From positions 1 through 36,130 of the forward strand of contig JAAYEA010000288.1 in NCBI GenBank assembly GCA_012689325.1: a stretch of DNA of 36,130 nucleotides. Direction: 5' to 3'. Positions within the stretch are counted from its first letter, which is position 1, and each line of letters begins with the position of its first letter. This document shows, in pieces, positions 1 to 7,570 of this stretch. The position numbers and the translations under genes were made by a program. The notes under the pieces were generated by a model. That model ran no database searches. It was not told the DNA's origin and saw only the letters and a list, made by a program, of their open reading frames with translations. The DNA comes from Chloroflexota bacterium. GTDB lineage: Bacteria; Chloroflexota; Anaerolineae; JAAYEA01.

Positions 1-117
1 CTCTTTCACGATGGTCTCCGGCGTCGGTTGGGCGCAGCTCGCCGCCAGAACACCCACCGCCGAGACGGCCGTCCAGGTCAGGAACTCGCGGCGATTGAGT
101 CTCTTTTCGTTCTGCAT
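1..117 (-). CDS. Solute-binding lipoprotein of an ABC transporter, N-terminal fragment (cut by the window edge)
   Basis: Only the first 39 codons are in the window; the gene runs off position 1. The start is the ATG at 117-115, preceded by a strong AGGAGG (130-125) seven bases upstream. The product begins with a basic segment, a twin-arginine-type RREFL motif (residues 9-13), a hydrophobic stretch and a lipobox-like end at Cys28 followed by AQPTP. This is almost the same architecture, and the same SCAQPTP junction, as the complete family-5 solute-binding protein at 5558-7570. The two are probably paralogues: exported, lipid-anchored and capturing a solute for an ABC importer. The ligand cannot be guessed from this fragment. 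It is transcribed divergently from the CHAT gene at 530, apparently from the promoter at 359-387. Confidence 0.8.
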   Translation of the reverse strand, partial: MQNEKRLNRREFLTWTAVSAVGVLAASCAQPTPETIVKE

Positions 118-529: not shown

Positions 530-3500
530 ATGGCCAAGACACGACGGCCTCTCCCCCTCCTGCGAATCTGCGTCTGCGCATGGCTCCTGGTTTCGCTCCT
601 CAGCGCCCGCTCGCCCGCCCGGGCCCAATCCTCCCGCGAGATCCTGCTATACGAGGAGGGCTTTGACCAGGGCGAAGCCCCCGGCTGGGACTTGGAGGCG
701 CTCAAGGAGAATCGCTGGTACGTGGAGGGCCAGGCGCTCTATGCGCGCGGGCACGCCCTGGCCACCTATCTCAAGGGCGAATGGGAGGACCTGCGCCTGG
801 AGCTGACGGTCCAGCTCCTCTCCCCCGACGAAGGGCTGCACATCAACATCCGGCACAGCGGCGAGGGGCGCTACTACCTGGCCCTGCACCCCGACCGCGC
901 GACGTTGCACAAACAGATCGGCTTTGGCGCCGGCGAGCGCTTTATCCAGGTCGCCAAGCCGGTGGACCAGGCCTTCGAGCTCAAAATCCCCCACGGTGTG
1001 AGCCTCTCGGTGTACGGCGGGCGGGTGCTGGCCGTGGTGGATGGGCAGACGCTCTTCGATTGGACCGACGACGCGCCGCTGCCTGCTGGGGCCATCGGCG
1101 TGGAGACGCTGGAGCGGGGCGAGGCGTTCGTGGACCATGTCCGCGTCTATGGCCCGGCTTTCCGGCAACTGGAGCTCATACGGCCCGACCTGGTGGTCCT
1201 GCCCGTGGAAAAGTTCTCCTATGCGACGGACTGCCAGTCTCTATCCCTGGTGGCCACCGTGCTCAATGGCGGCAAGGCCGTCTCCGGCTCTAGCGTGCTG
1301 CAGATCACCGACCCCAAGAACCAGTGGGAGGTCGCCTGGCGCGAGGTCCCCGCGTTGGACCCCGGCGGCGCCGCCAATCTCGAGATCACTGCCGAGCTCC
1401 CCGCCGACCAGCAGGGCCGGGAGCACGTCCTCACCCTGGTGATCGACCCCGACCAGGCGATCCGGGAAAGCGACGAGGGCAACAACGCCAGCGAGCTCTA
1501 CTTGCCCGCCTGTGCCCAGGCCGAGCCGGCCGCGCTGCTCATCCGCGGCCTCGACCCGGCCGAGGGGCGCCGCGGCGAGACCCTGACGGTGCGCGTGCTG
1601 GGCGAGGGCTTTGCCCCTGGGACAGAGGTGCGGATACTGCCGGACATCCGCACCGAGGCCACCGATTTCGTCAGTCCGGAAGAGCTGCAAGCCCGCATCG
1701 CCATCCCGGACAGCGCCGAGGGAGGGGCGCGACGGGTGCAGGTGGTCGCGCCGGACGGCCGCACCGCCACCGCTCGGGTCGCCTTCGGCATCGTGGCCCC
1801 GCCGGCGGAGCCGCCCCCGGTGACCGATACCCCGCGCCTGGTCACGCCCACGCGCCGCGTGCGCGCGCCCACCCCCACGGGGCCGGGCCTCCTCGCCTGG
1901 CCGCCGGAGGACCCGGTGGTCCGGCTGGTGCTCATCCTGGTGGGCGGCGGCGTCGGGCTGGCCCTGGTGCGACGCGCCATCCGATCCCTTCAGGACCAAC
2001 TGACGCAATCCAAGCCGGCGGGCTTGCCGCCGTTGCGCCTCACCCGGGTGTGGCTCACCGAGGGCCCCTCGGGGCAAGGGCGCGTCATCTCGGATCGCGA
2101 GGCGCTGGCCGAGGGCGAGGATTACACACTGCACGTGCAGGCATTGCCCCGCGGCGCGGCAGAGGCCGCCGCCGTCGCAGGGGGCGCGGGCGCGCACCTG
2201 GACGTCGTCTTTTACTCGCCGGAGGGGGAGCTGCAAATGGACCGCGAGGCGGCCGCCCTCGACGTGCCGCCCCGCGGCGCCAGCAGCGAGGTCCAGCGGG
2301 TCGTCCGCCCGGCCAAGCGAGGCCGCGCGCGGGTCCGCGCCTGCATCTATTACCGCAACACCCTGGTTCAGTCGGTGCTGGTGGATGCCGATGTGGCGCG
2401 GCGCCAGGGCGCCAAGGGGCTCATCCGGCGCGAGATGGACTATGTCGCCAGCCTGGACCTGGCCAGCATGGAGGCGCTGCCCAGCCCCGCGCTCAACATC
2501 TGGACCAACCAGGCGGCGGATGGGACGCACTGGATCGGGGTCTTTTCCAGCGAGGCCCAGGCGGGCCACCTGCTGCGCAATGGGGTGATGCACACTTTTG
2601 GCGCCGGAGAGCTGGCCCCGCAAGCCCAGACGTTGCGCGAGCTCTGGTTCAAGGCCGAGGCGGGCGAGCGAGGGCGCTCGTACCGCATGGCCCTGCCGCA
2701 GCCGCTGGACGTCGCCCCGGTCGTGCAGCGGCTGGAGCGCGACCTGGTGGAGTTGGCCGCGCGCGGGCGCATCCTGTACGACGCCCTCTTTTACAGCCGC
2801 CTGGACTCCGTCGCCCGGCAGGAGCAACTCGAGGGCATGGAGGCGGCGCTGGCCCAGCCGGCCATCATCTCGGTGGCGCGCTGCCACGAAGACGGCGTCA
2901 CCATCCCCTGGGCGGCCCTCTATAGCCTCTATCTGCAAGCCGGCAAGCTGGAAACCGGCGGCCTCCAACTCTGCCCCATCTTTAAGGCCCAACTGGCCGA
3001 CGATCTGGCCGATCCCGGAGGCATCCACGACCTGCTGGACGATTTCCCGGCCTGCCGCGGCCAGGCGCCGTGCCCCGTGGCCCGCGGCGGCGACGGGACC
3101 GTGGTCTGCCCCTTTGGCTTTTGGGGGATCATGCACCAGATCGAGCAGCCCTTGCAGCAGATCAGGCCCACGCCGGTGGATCAGCTTCCCGCCGAGCTGC
3201 AGAGCGAGAGCTTTAACCAGACCTCTTTCCTGACCCACGCCCGGGGCGCCGCCCTGGATTTAGCCATGGCGGCCTATCCTGCCCTGCCCCGATTGGCGGA
3301 GCACCGCGCCGAGTTCGAGGGGCTGGGCCGCGCCATCCCCTTGCACGTGACCTATGAAGAGGATCGGGACCGGGTGCTGGAGCTGTTGCGACAGGGCGGC
3401 AAGCACATCTATTACTTTTACTGCCACGGCGACCCGGATGACCGGGTGTTCAAGCTCGCGCTGGGGCCAGCCCAGCGCCCAGGCTACCTCATGGCGGCGG

Positions 3501-3931
3501 ACCTGGACCCGGCCTGGCGCGCGCGCTGGCCCAAGCAGCCGCAGCCGCTGGTCATCCTCAACGCCTGCGAGACCACGGTGCTCTTGCCCGAGATCAGCCA
3601 CGGTTTTTTGGGCAAGCTGCGCTGGCTGGGGGCCTGCGGCGTCATCGGCACCGAGATCAAGGTGCGCACCGAGCTGGCCGCACCCTTTGGCGCCCAGTTG
3701 GTGGCGGGGCTGCTCTCCGGGCGCTCCGTGGGCGAGGTGGTCCTGGGCATTCGCCACGGGTTGCTGCGCCAGGCCAACCCGCTGGGCCTGGTCTACAGTT
3801 ACTACTCCCCCGCCACCCTGCACCTGCACCAAGATGCCGGATGCCCCTGGTGCCAGGCCCATCCGCCCACGCGCGCGGGCCGGACAGGCGCCACGGGCAG
3901 CGGCCCCGTCGAAAGGAGAACACCCCTATGA
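530..3931 (+). CDS. Single-pass membrane protein with CARDB and IPT-like ectodomains and a cytoplasmic CHAT caspase-like protease
   Basis: The start at 530 is chosen because it opens directly on a signal peptide (basic start, hydrophobic core, ARA cleavage end near residue 33); the promoter lies downstream of longer alternatives. The product is 1133 aa. Visible order: a jelly-roll domain resembling LamG/DUF1080 (about 35-209), a CARDB-like domain with the DEGNNASE signature (about 218-328), an IPT/TIG-like domain (about 334-423), a Pro/Thr linker, one transmembrane helix (about 462-485) and a large cytoplasmic part. The C-terminus (about 890-1115) matches the CHAT family: YFYCHG gives the catalytic His966 and LVILNACET the catalytic Cys1013, with the preceding VCPFGFWG typical of the family. 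By family knowledge CHAT domains are caspase-like cysteine proteases. An extracellular event could thus control an intracellular protease (inference). The stop overlaps the next start as ATGA, so the two proteins are probably made together. Trigger and substrate are unknown. Confidence 0.85.
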   Translation: MAKTRRPLPLLRICVCAWLLVSLLSARSPARAQSSREILLYEEGFDQGEAPGWDLEALKENRWYVEGQALYARGHALATYLKGEWEDLRLELTVQLLSPDEGLHINIRHSGEGRYYLALHPDRATLHKQIGFGAGERFIQVAKPVDQAFELKIPHGVSLSVYGGRVLAVVDGQTLFDWTDDAPLPAGAIGVETLERGEAFVDHVRVYGPAFRQLELIRPDLVVLPVEKFSYATDCQSLSLVATVLNGGKAVSGSSVLQITDPKNQWEVAWREVPALDPGGAANLEITAELPADQQGREHVLTLVIDPDQAIRESDEGNNASELYLPACAQAEPAALLIRGLDPAEGRRGETLTVRVLGEGFAPGTEVRILPDIRTEATDFVSPEELQARIAIPDSAEGGARRVQVVAPDGRTATARVAFGIVAPPAEPPPVTDTPRLVTPTRRVRAPTPTGPGLLAWPPEDPVVRLVLILVGGGVGLALVRRAIRSLQDQLTQSKPAGLPPLRLTRVWLTEGPSGQGRVISDREALAEGEDYTLHVQALPRGAAEAAAVAGGAGAHLDVVFYSPEGELQMDREAAALDVPPRGASSEVQRVVRPAKRGRARVRACIYYRNTLVQSVLVDADVARRQGAKGLIRREMDYVASLDLASMEALPSPALNIWTNQAADGTHWIGVFSSEAQAGHLLRNGVMHTFGAGELAPQAQTLRELWFKAEAGERGRSYRMALPQPLDVAPVVQRLERDLVELAARGRILYDALFYSRLDSVARQEQLEGMEAALAQPAIISVARCHEDGVTIPWAALYSLYLQAGKLETGGLQLCPIFKAQLADDLADPGGIHDLLDDFPACRGQAPCPVARGGDGTVVCPFGFWGIMHQIEQPLQQIRPTPVDQLPAELQSESFNQTSFLTHARGAALDLAMAAYPALPRLAEHRAEFEGLGRAIPLHVTYEEDRDRVLELLRQGGKHIYYFYCHGDPDDRVFKLALGPAQRPGYLMAADLDPAWRARWPKQPQPLVILNACETTVLLPEISHGFLGKLRWLGACGVIGTEIKVRTELAAPFGAQLVAGLLSGRSVGEVVLGIRHGLLRQANPLGLVYSYYSPATLHLHQDAGCPWCQAHPPTRAGRTGATGSGPVERRTPL

Positions 3932-5130
3932 GCAACGCATGGCAGCGCCAACAGCGCGTCGTCGAATCGCTGCGCCGGTTGATCTACGCGCAGCCCGACC
4001 CCACCGCCTCCGCAGAACTGCTGCAAAAGCTGCAAGAGGAGGAAGAAAAGCTCCACCAGCTTGAGAGCGCGGAGCAACGCCCGGCGCCCGGGGGCGGCGT
4101 CTTGCTGGAGGCGCAGGTCGGGGGCAAGCACGCCGGCGACCTGCTGGGCGGGACCACCACGGGCATCGAGGCCACGGTGCTCTTGCGCCAGTCCCATGTG
4201 CCCATCAGCGTCGTGCATTTCCTCGATCCCCAGGACAAACCCCTGGTCACCTTTCGCGTTAAATACCTGGGCGACGAATACGCCAGGCTGCGCTTGACCT
4301 CCTTTGTGGAAGGCTACTCGGCCCAGGCCATCAACACCGTCGAGCTGCTGGACGATCAGGAGGTGGAGATCCACCAGTTGCCCACCTTCTTTCCCGATAG
4401 GCTGCGCTCGGTCACCGAGTTGACCCGCGCCACGCTCCACGTCCGCATCGACGACCTGGATGGGGCCACCGAGCAGCACAACACCTTCCCCATCTGGCTG
4501 CTGGCGCGGACCAGCGCCTACCTCGGCGTGCAGGACCCGGCCACCGGCGAGTGGCTCGACCTCTCGCCCTATCTGGGCGCGTGGGTTACCCCCAACGCCC
4601 CGGAGGTGCTGCGGCTGCTGCGCAAGGCGCTGGACCTGCACCCCCAGCGCAAGATCGTCGGCTACCAGGCGGGCGCGGCAGGGGTCGAGCCGCAGGTCAG
4701 GGCCATCTATCAGGCGATCAAGGCCGAAGGCATCGCCTACGTGAACTCGCTGCTGGCCTTTGGCGGCGCTGGCGCGCAGATGCAGCGGGTGCGTTTGCCG
4801 CGCGAGACCATCCGCACCCGCTCCGCCAATTGCATCGACGCCACGGTGCTCATGGCCAGCGTGCTAGAGGCCGCCACGTTGAACCCGGCCCTCATCATCC
4901 TGCCGGGCCATGCCCTCCTAGGCTGGGAGTCCGAGAACGGCAGCGGCGAATGGCACTATGTGGAGACGACCATGCTCGGCACGCATGATTTCGACGCGGC
5001 CTGCAAGGCGGGGCAGATCATGGGTCAGCAGCAAGAAGCCCAGGCCAAGAAACTGGGAGACCCGCGCTATTTCCAGCGCCTTGCCCTGCCCGCGCTGCGC
5101 GGCGAACGGGGCATCATGCCCATGGAGTGA
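3928..5130 (+). CDS. Transglutaminase-like protein coupled to the CHAT protease
   Basis: The start is the ATG of the ATGA overlap, with AAGGAG at 3913-3918. The product is 400 aa with no signal peptide or transmembrane segment, so it should be cytoplasmic. Residues 1-50 form a charged, Leu/Glu-rich probable coiled coil. A middle beta-rich region (about 50-190) is not recognised. The C-terminal half has a transglutaminase/papain-like core: Cys302 in NCIDATVLMAS, His328 in PGHALLGW and an acidic third position, Glu346, in HYVETTML. Most transglutaminase-like triads use Asp or Asn, so Glu is slightly unusual. Such folds act as proteases, peptide amidases or crosslinking enzymes. Coupling to the CHAT gene suggests this is its substrate, partner or effector, but nothing shows which. 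Direct interaction is inference. Confidence 0.75.
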   Translation: MSNAWQRQQRVVESLRRLIYAQPDPTASAELLQKLQEEEEKLHQLESAEQRPAPGGGVLLEAQVGGKHAGDLLGGTTTGIEATVLLRQSHVPISVVHFLDPQDKPLVTFRVKYLGDEYARLRLTSFVEGYSAQAINTVELLDDQEVEIHQLPTFFPDRLRSVTELTRATLHVRIDDLDGATEQHNTFPIWLLARTSAYLGVQDPATGEWLDLSPYLGAWVTPNAPEVLRLLRKALDLHPQRKIVGYQAGAAGVEPQVRAIYQAIKAEGIAYVNSLLAFGGAGAQMQRVRLPRETIRTRSANCIDATVLMASVLEAATLNPALIILPGHALLGWESENGSGEWHYVETTMLGTHDFDAACKAGQIMGQQQEAQAKKLGDPRYFQRLALPALRGERGIMPME

Positions 5131-5557: not shown

Positions 5558-7570
5558 ATGAAGCGTCGTGATTTTCTCAAAGCGACGGCAATGACCGCCG
5601 TTGGCGCCCTGGCAGTGAGCTGCGCACAACCCACCCCCCAGATCATCGAGAAGGAAGTGCCAGTCGAGAAAGTCGTCAAAGAGACCGTGGTTGTCCAGAA
5701 AGAAGTGTCCGTCGAAAAAGTCGTGACGGCGACCCCGGTCCAGATGAAGTACAAGGAAGCCCCCACGCTGGCCGGGCTGGTGCAACAGGGCAAGCTCCCG
5801 CCGGTGGATGAGCGCCTCCCCGAGGACCCGCTCGTGATCCCGGTGGTGGAAGAGATCGGGCAATATGGCGGCACCTGGCACCGCTTGGCCACCACGGCCA
5901 GCGATGTCGGCATGTACAACAACCGCCTGACCTATGAAAACCTAGTCCGCTGGGCCCCCGACGGCAGCGAGATGCTCCCGAACATCGCCGCGAGCTGGGA
6001 GATCTCGCCCGACGGCAAGGTCTTTACCTTCAAGCTGCGCAAGGGCATGAAGTGGTCCGATGGCGAGCCGTTTACCGCCGAGGACCTCGCCTGGCTGGTC
6101 GAGGTGGTCTGGAAGAACAAGGAGCAGACCCCCAACTTTCCGGCCGCCTGGTCCCCCGGCGGCACTCCGTTGGTCGTCGAGACGCCAGATGACTATACCG
6201 CGCGCTTCATCTTTGGCGCGCCCTATGGCCTGATGATGGTCAAGATGGCCTCCTTCGATGGCGTGTCCTTCAATACGTGCCCCGCGCACTATCTGAAGCA
6301 GTTCCACATCAGCGAGGTGGACAAGGCCAAGCTGGAGACCGCCGCCAAGGCCGCCGGTTTCGAGTTCTGGTATCAGCTCTATGGCAACAAGAACAACGCT
6401 CTGGCCAACAAGGACAAGCCGGTGATCTTTGCCTGGGTTCCGGATATCCTCGCCCCCAAGCAGCCCATTGTGCTCTCGCGCAACCCCTTCTACTGGAAGG
6501 TGGATCCCGAGGGGAACCAACTGCCCTACATCGACCGGATCGAGTTCATGGTCGTGGGCAACGCCCCCACCATCAACCTGCGCGCCGCCTCCGGTGAAGT
6601 GGATATGCAGCTCCGCCACATCACCCTGGACAACTATCCGATCTTTCAGGAGAACAAGGAGAAGGGCGATTACCGCGTCTTTCTCTGGGACCAGGGCTAT
6701 AGCTCGGGGAGCATCGTTGGCATCAACCTGACCAACAAGGAGCCTGTCTCGCACGAGATCGTGAACGACAAGCGCTTCCGTTACGCCCTCTCCCTGAGCA
6801 TCAACCGGCAAGAGATCATCGATGGCGTCTATTTGGGCATCACCGAGCCGACCCAGAACGCGCCGCTCAAGAGCTCGCCCCATTACTGGGAAGAGTTCGG
6901 CAAGAACATGATCGAGTACGATCTGACCAAGGCGAACGCGTACCTGGACGAGATGGGCCTGAACAAACGGGATGCGGACGGCTATCGCCTGCGCCCGGAT
7001 GGCAAGCGCCTGTCCTTCATCTACGAGTACACGCCGGCCTTTGGCCCCTTTGGTGACGTGGCCGAGTTGCTCGCGGCGCAATGGGGCAAGGTCGGCATCG
7101 AGATCATCATCAAGGAAGTGGCGCGCGATCTCTATAACCAACACCTGACGGCCAATGACATCGAGCTGACCATGTGGACGGGCAGCGCCGAGTTCAACCC
7201 GTTGATCGACCCGCGCTGGTTCGTGCCGAGCAACGACTGCGCCATGTCCCCCTGGTCCTGCCAGTACGGCCTGTGGTGGATCACCGCCGGCAAGGAAGGC
7301 ATCGAGCCCACCGGCGATATCCGCAAGGTGCTAGAGATCTATGACGAGATCAAGGTGACGACGGATCCGGACATGCAGGTCAAGCTCTTCCGCCAGATCC
7401 TGGAGCTCAACAAAGAGAACCTGTGGGTCGTCAGCGTCTGCACCGAGGGCCCGCAGCCCGTCATCGTCAAGAACAATTTCCGTAACGTCCCCGAGGTTGC
7501 CCTTTCGGACTGGCAGTTGCAGACGATCGGCAACACGCGGCCGGAGCAGTACTTTATCAAACAGAGCTAA
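5558..7570 (+). CDS. Family-5 (peptide/nickel type) ABC transporter solute-binding lipoprotein
   Basis: The product is 670 aa. The ATG follows AAGGAG at 5540-5545. A twin-arginine signal (RRDFLK, residues 3-8) and hydrophobic stretch lead to Cys22 in a lipobox-like site. A Glu/Val/Lys repeat linker (about 30-65) of the kind common in Chloroflexota lipoproteins follows. The rest is a full-length SBP_bac_5-type fold: early GGTW and LTYENLVRW segments, then the WSDGEPFTAEDLAW motif typical of oligopeptide/dipeptide binding proteins. It should sit on the outer face of the membrane and deliver a peptide or other organic solute to an ABC permease. No permease or ATPase gene is in the window, so it is either an orphan receptor or works with distant components. 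It is bounded by its own leader/terminator upstream and a strong terminator downstream, making it a single-gene unit. The ligand cannot be assigned. Confidence 0.9.
   Translation: MKRRDFLKATAMTAVGALAVSCAQPTPQIIEKEVPVEKVVKETVVVQKEVSVEKVVTATPVQMKYKEAPTLAGLVQQGKLPPVDERLPEDPLVIPVVEEIGQYGGTWHRLATTASDVGMYNNRLTYENLVRWAPDGSEMLPNIAASWEISPDGKVFTFKLRKGMKWSDGEPFTAEDLAWLVEVVWKNKEQTPNFPAAWSPGGTPLVVETPDDYTARFIFGAPYGLMMVKMASFDGVSFNTCPAHYLKQFHISEVDKAKLETAAKAAGFEFWYQLYGNKNNALANKDKPVIFAWVPDILAPKQPIVLSRNPFYWKVDPEGNQLPYIDRIEFMVVGNAPTINLRAASGEVDMQLRHITLDNYPIFQENKEKGDYRVFLWDQGYSSGSIVGINLTNKEPVSHEIVNDKRFRYALSLSINRQEIIDGVYLGITEPTQNAPLKSSPHYWEEFGKNMIEYDLTKANAYLDEMGLNKRDADGYRLRPDGKRLSFIYEYTPAFGPFGDVAELLAAQWGKVGIEIIIKEVARDLYNQHLTANDIELTMWTGSAEFNPLIDPRWFVPSNDCAMSPWSCQYGLWWITAGKEGIEPTGDIRKVLEIYDEIKVTTDPDMQVKLFRQILELNKENLWVVSVCTEGPQPVIVKNNFRNVPEVALSDWQLQTIGNTRPEQYFIKQS

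Follow-up and report, generated by a model that had tools for sequence, protein, structure and literature searches.

Two adjacent genes near one end of a Chloroflexota contig raise the question of whether a caspase-like CHAT protease has been wired to an extracellular receptor and coupled to a second, transglutaminase-like (TGL) enzyme. The window, by which we mean the whole 36,130-nucleotide stretch that was analysed, encodes the two proteins, P1 and P2, in intact open reading frames as an earlier sequence-only reading had claimed, with the P2 start overlapping the P1 stop in an ATGA motif. Both starts are preceded by ribosome-binding-like sequences (aaaggcgagg upstream of P1 and aaaggaga before P2). 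The features of the pair are listed in Table 1.

Architecture of P1 and P2

Table 1. Coordinates in the window of the P1 and P2 genes and of the features assigned to them.
Feature	Position	Strand	Basis or remark
P1 (signal peptide / ectodomain / TM / beta-sandwich / CHAT)	530..3931	+	intact ORF, 1133 aa, ATG 530
P1 predicted Sec signal peptide, residues 1-33	530..628	+	hydrophobic 8-26, then ARA/Q
P1 jelly-roll/LamG-like domain, residues 36-212	635..1165	+	same domain in L086, L087
P1 CARDB, residues 219-321	1184..1492	+	Pfam PF07705, E 2.2e-10
P1 IPT/TIG-like domain, residues 338-419	1541..1786	+	NCBIfam NF058597, E 4.6e-9
P1 TM helix, residues 462-480	1913..1969	+	hydropathy; GGGVG small-residue patch, then RRAIR (positive-inside)
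P1 cytoplasmic beta-sandwich, about residues 503-640	2036..2449	+	AlphaFold2 model; structural matches to CARDB folds
P1 invariant C815, C848, C860, H925	2972..3304	+	alignment, 43/43 sequences; candidate metal site
P1 CHAT core, residues 910-1071	3257..3742	+	H966 codon 3425-3427, C1013 codon 3566-3568
P2, cytoplasmic	3928..5130	+	intact ORF, 400 aa; ATGA overlap with P1 end
P2 TGL triad C302, H328, E346	4831..4965	+	sequence, alignment

P1 has the predicted layout of a membrane receptor: a signal peptide, a single transmembrane (TM) helix and an inside C-terminus. From hydropathy and the positive-inside rule, residues 34-461 would lie outside the cytoplasm and residues 481-1133 inside. An acidic, proline-rich stretch directly precedes the helix, and Cys235 and Cys328, in or directly past the CARDB domain, are a possible disulfide. 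The jelly-roll domain recurs in two other Chloroflexota proteins, behind a signal peptide in one (L086) and outside a TM helix, with NB-ARC and TPRs across the membrane, in the other (L087); this placement independently supports an extracytoplasmic ectodomain in P1. Together with the signal peptide, the one helix and the RR that follows it, it favours the predicted arrangement that had been read from the sequence, with the ectodomain outside and CHAT inside. An assembly chimera of ectodomain and CHAT is thought unlikely: the frame is single and continuous, and GC and GC3 are equal in both halves.

The inside part of P1 consists of the beta-sandwich, a helical region and CHAT (AlphaFold2 pLDDT 82.2). 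It belongs with the CHAT peptidases by profile, His/Cys dyad and caspase-like fold, its activity being predicted. The Pfam CHAT score is 23.7 bits with hmmscan, just under the cut-off of 24, and 24.7 bits in the genome search; the best Foldseek matches of the CHAT model include SAVED-CHAT, Csx29 and separase. The dyad lies at His966 and Cys1013, as claimed earlier. In an alignment of 43 sequences H966 is kept in 42/43 and C1013 in 43/43; the genomes were scanned with the patterns CPxGFWG and YFxCH, so that C860, C965 and H966 owe their conservation in part to this selection, while that of C815, C848, H925 and C1013 is independent of the patterns. The residues C815, C848, C860 and H925 mark a CHAT subfamily with the motif CPxGFWG and may form a metal site, of a kind that we do not know from other CHATs. 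This subfamily spans bacteria of many phyla as well as archaea. CHAT domains as such were found in 138/190 genomes of the window's class and are so common there that CHAT alone says little about immunity.

The AlphaFold2 model of P2 (pLDDT 88.9) comprises a helical hairpin (residues 2-49), a disordered linker (51-75), a beta-sandwich (80-202) and a TGL domain (213-400). The TGL fold is recognized by a Cys at a helix start and a His and Asp/Glu in the next strands, and the model has this arrangement: C302 starts helix 302-315, H328 starts strand 328-334, and E346 follows strand 342-345. These positions, too, had been named correctly, and they are conserved among P2 relatives (C in 21/23, H in 22/23, and E or D in 23/23). 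Foldseek matches to transglutaminases, yeast PNGase and the putative protease 3kd4 are weak, with low global scores, and the only curated Pfam match, PF04473, scores 15.7 bits, below its cut-off of 20.5; the relatives L025 and L034 match Transglut_core(2), again short of the cut-off. Proteases and amidases are among the enzymes with a TGL fold. For P2, the word transglutaminase should be read as a statement of fold, and crosslinking is at most a predicted function. Nearly all TGL relatives end in a conserved R..GI.P(M/L)E-like C-terminus (window 5098-5127 in P2), as though the end of the chain had a function.

The TGL module in other proteins

That P2 is transglutaminase-like stands as far as the fold is concerned, but the protein is not unclassified. 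Homology identifies it with a known module, which forms the N-terminal domain in DUF3320/DUF4011 helicases and occurs in EAD proteins as well. Residues 132-337 match the N-terminus of the NCBIfam family NF058533, 'anti-phage protein ProA', with an E-value of 1.7e-30. The match covers only positions 41-239 at 105 bits, as compared with the 1903-position match of >1500 bits that marks a full member; P2 therefore shares a domain with the ProA family and is not itself a member. Annotated plasmid matches of P2 are DUF3320/DUF4011 proteins, with the C/H/E triad present in two. The homology extends over about 200-300 N-terminal residues of these helicases and includes the triad, but P2 differs in having no helicase part and in being paired with a CHAT protein.

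Other proteins carry the module fused to EAD1 (L025) or joined to discoidin-type (F5/8C) domains that follow a signal peptide (L033, L034). These fusions and gene contexts indicate that the same TGL module occurs both within and outside cells, as well as in predicted conflict systems. At L215 (2308-6907) an EAD7-TGL gene is found, with a gene for a NACHT-HEAT-FGE-sulfatase protein 44 bp downstream. Several genomes of one family in the window's class (L026-L031) carry an AAA_35 ATPase-TGL fusion in similar gene contexts, as if it were a fixed chromosomal gene. An astacin-type (M12) metalloprotease gene adjoins a TGL gene at L092 (2295-4457; Pfam), and an astacin look-alike, recognized by eye, does so in the unrelated genome of L024 (8126-8890).

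Such a range of partners (helicase, AAA_35, EAD, F5/8C and CHAT) would be expected of a sensory or adaptor module, and is an argument for regarding P2 as a regulator. Its TGL domain and beta-sandwich would then sense or scaffold, perhaps recognizing a modified protein or a phage factor, and would hold CHAT off or switch it on, with CHAT as the executioner. We consider this rather unlikely: the C/H/E triad is kept in nearly all members, which suggests catalysis, and is lost in a few (L218, L230).

Recurrence of the gene pair

A scan of the genome collection for members of this CHAT subfamily yielded 64 loci, on which a P2 profile was run in all six frames. P2 adjoins CHAT at exactly 2/64 of these, L089 and L092, both from Myxococcota, although each group was sampled in part and some contigs are short, such that there may be more pairs and contig ends may explain some of the absences. 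In L089 (Sorangium cellulosum So0157-2), the P2 stop lies 4 bp upstream of the CHAT ATG, and identity to the window pair is 48% for P2 and about 34% for CHAT. This P2 lies under a long antisense ORF; longest-ORF calling hides it and the six-frame search finds it. In L092, a Polyangia metagenome-assembled genome, the genes are 60 bp apart and identities are 43% and 31%, respectively. The pair thus recurs outside the window, which overturns the reading of it as unique; absence from other genomes had been named as the observation that would count against coupling of protease and partner, and recurrence in Myxococcota instead supports it. Scans of close relatives for P1 only or P2 only found nothing.

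No relatives of P1 score better than the CHATs of L089 and L092. In a tree of 43 proteins, the three paired CHATs group in a single clade (support 100/96), and the three paired P2s fall in a seven-member clade (support 97/99) together with four unpaired P2s. With P2 beside both nearest CHAT relatives, its adjacency in the window is not a matter of chance, and the CHAT-P2 pairing is, from sequence comparison, real and conserved. Homologues of P2 without CHAT nearby (L023, L214, L024-L034) outnumber paired ones and most CHAT relatives have no P2, indicating that the link, real as it is, is restricted to one clade.

P1 and P2 might nevertheless be independent conflict-system parts whose adjacency is inherited co-transcription. 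The reversal of gene order between phyla (CHAT-P2 in the window, P2-CHAT in L089 and L092) and the many relatives of each protein that stand alone would fit this explanation, which we judge quite improbable: adjacency coincides exactly with the nearest clade and spans two phyla, a second type of CHAT lies near P2 in L244, and adjacency at 2/64 loci would arise by chance with a probability of <1e-5 (a rough estimate, taking a P2 homologue to be present in about one in ten genomes or fewer). In L244 (486-9978), from a 14.6-Mb myxobacterial genome, the P2-like gene heads a run of MoxR/AAA_5, a vWA-like ORF (assigned by eye; without a Pfam match), CHAT and CHAT-nSTAND1.

The myxobacterial CHAT relatives have neither a signal peptide nor a convincing TM helix, and their N-terminal halves are unrelated to the P1 ectodomain. 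No CHAT relative examined has a convincing TM helix with an ectodomain; hydrophobic stretches in some (e.g. at 505 in L089) were considered as TM segments and mostly correspond to strands of the sandwich or CHAT core. Among the proteins examined, the receptor half is thus peculiar to the one in the window. The window version looks to have gained it, as a new membrane-receptor variant of the paired CHAT.

Predicted function and comparison with known systems

The genes around the pair encode solute-binding proteins and Rex-like, NuoF-like and molybdopterin oxidoreductase proteins (ten window neighbours scanned): this is a metabolic/transport neighbourhood and not a defence island. Lipoprotein-type extracellular solute-binding protein genes with similar N-termini flank the pair directly, at 1-117 (- strand) and 5558-7570 (+ strand, SBP_bac_5). 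PADLOC and PHROGs gave no match. EAD, NTPase or vWA domains were not detected in P1, P2 or the ten neighbours, and are present at the relatives L025, L215 and L244.

Our tentative reading, which we prefer without giving it even chances, is that P1 and P2 form a two-gene CHAT-TGL signalling module, likely of the conflict or programmed-cell-death type, with CHAT attached to a single-pass receptor. In its favour are the architecture, the conserved CHAT His/Cys and TGL Cys/His/Glu, and the recurrence of the pair; against it are the metabolic surroundings, the lack of PADLOC and PHROGs matches, and the majority of unpaired P2 homologues and CHAT relatives. According to two surveys of conflict systems (Kaur et al. 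2020, PMC7159879; Burroughs and Aravind 2021, PMC8195603), parts of such systems include caspase-superfamily and transglutaminase-like peptidases, and EAD, MoxR-vWA and STAND-FGE proteins are their hallmarks. The conflict-system contexts of its relatives make the cytoplasmic CHAT-P2 core look like a predicted module of this kind, and the pair probably belongs to bacterial self-defence machinery.

The flanking solute-binding protein genes, and the fact that CARDB, IPT and jelly-roll are typical binding or adhesion modules, could also be accommodated if P1 were an envelope or nutrient sensor. CHAT would then cleave P2 or another regulator and so adjust transport or envelope genes, with no cell death. 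This alternative seems to us somewhat unlikely, as a membrane receptor half is missing from the myxobacterial pairs, L089 has an nSTAND1-trypsin gene rather than a transporter alongside, and P2 relatives are found in EAD, STAND and helicase contexts.

In the conflict-type reading, a ligand (a glycan, or a phage or cell-surface component) would bind to or crowd on the jelly-roll/CARDB/IPT ectodomain, P1 molecules would be brought together via the GGGVG-containing TM helix, and the clustered CHAT domains would become active by proximity. P2, tethered by its N-terminal hairpin, may be the immediate CHAT target or a co-effector, and could be released at the disordered linker. The freed or activated TGL domain would act as a second thiol enzyme, a protease, deamidase or amidase and not necessarily a crosslinker, on cell proteins, leading to growth arrest or death. 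Cleavage of P2 by CHAT and an effector role for TGL are thus suggestions drawn from sequence. In Myxococcota the pair would do without a membrane receptor and presumably take its input from within the cell. The boldest version, an outside-in death or alarm receptor in which ligand activates CHAT and fires the TGL co-enzyme, with a core shared across phyla and fused to a receptor only here, is unlikely. If true, bacteria would have a caspase-like protease that is coupled within a single chain to an extracellular receptor, by a logic like that of animal death receptors, and a second thiol enzyme would be its dedicated partner.

The pair resembles CHAT-containing NTP-dependent conflict systems of the MoxR-vWA ternary, STAND and EAD-linked types, in that EAD1 or EAD7 is found in relatives of P2, which also adjoin NACHT-FGE or MoxR genes, and is unlike them in that the window pair has no adjacent NTPase, EAD or vWA gene and has an added ectodomain. 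In the available text of PMC7159879 and PMC8195603, we did not find a CHAT+TGL pair named. System 4 (EACC1 + caspase; PMC7159879), which is membrane-associated, likewise has two genes, one conserved TM helix with a small-residue patch, a caspase-superfamily peptidase and a proposed membrane-proximal activation; there, however, TM protein and peptidase are encoded separately, the peptidase lies outside this CHAT subfamily, and there is no constant TGL partner. Csx29/TPR-CHAT (Craspase) and SAVED-CHAT share the CHAT fold and His/Cys dyad with P1 (PDB 8eex and 8tl0 are among the best Foldseek matches), and in both Csx29-Csx30 and SAVED-CHAT systems, CHAT acts on a partner substrate or within a proteolytic cascade. 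They differ from P1 in their input, intracellular RNA or cA3, and in having no TM helix. To our knowledge, Csx30 is not a TGL protein. CHAT-P2 offers a simple two-gene system for testing the function of the TGL module, and a candidate partner for this otherwise orphan module of the widespread DUF3320/DUF4011 defence-type helicases.

The earlier statement that known CHAT systems are cytoplasmic proved too broad. The C-terminal half of P1 resembles DdvA (PDB 8rot and 8rw5; Foldseek E-values of 1.5e-5 to 1.8e-5), titled a transmembrane anti-sigma factor; it differs from P1 in that role, given by title. We know of no TGL partner of DdvA. In the window's own class, L279 (1686-5456) encodes a signal peptide-TPR-CHAT-TM protein, with CHAT predicted to be extracellular. 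The genome that contains it (G172) also holds, at another locus, the nearest P2 homologue, which is truncated.
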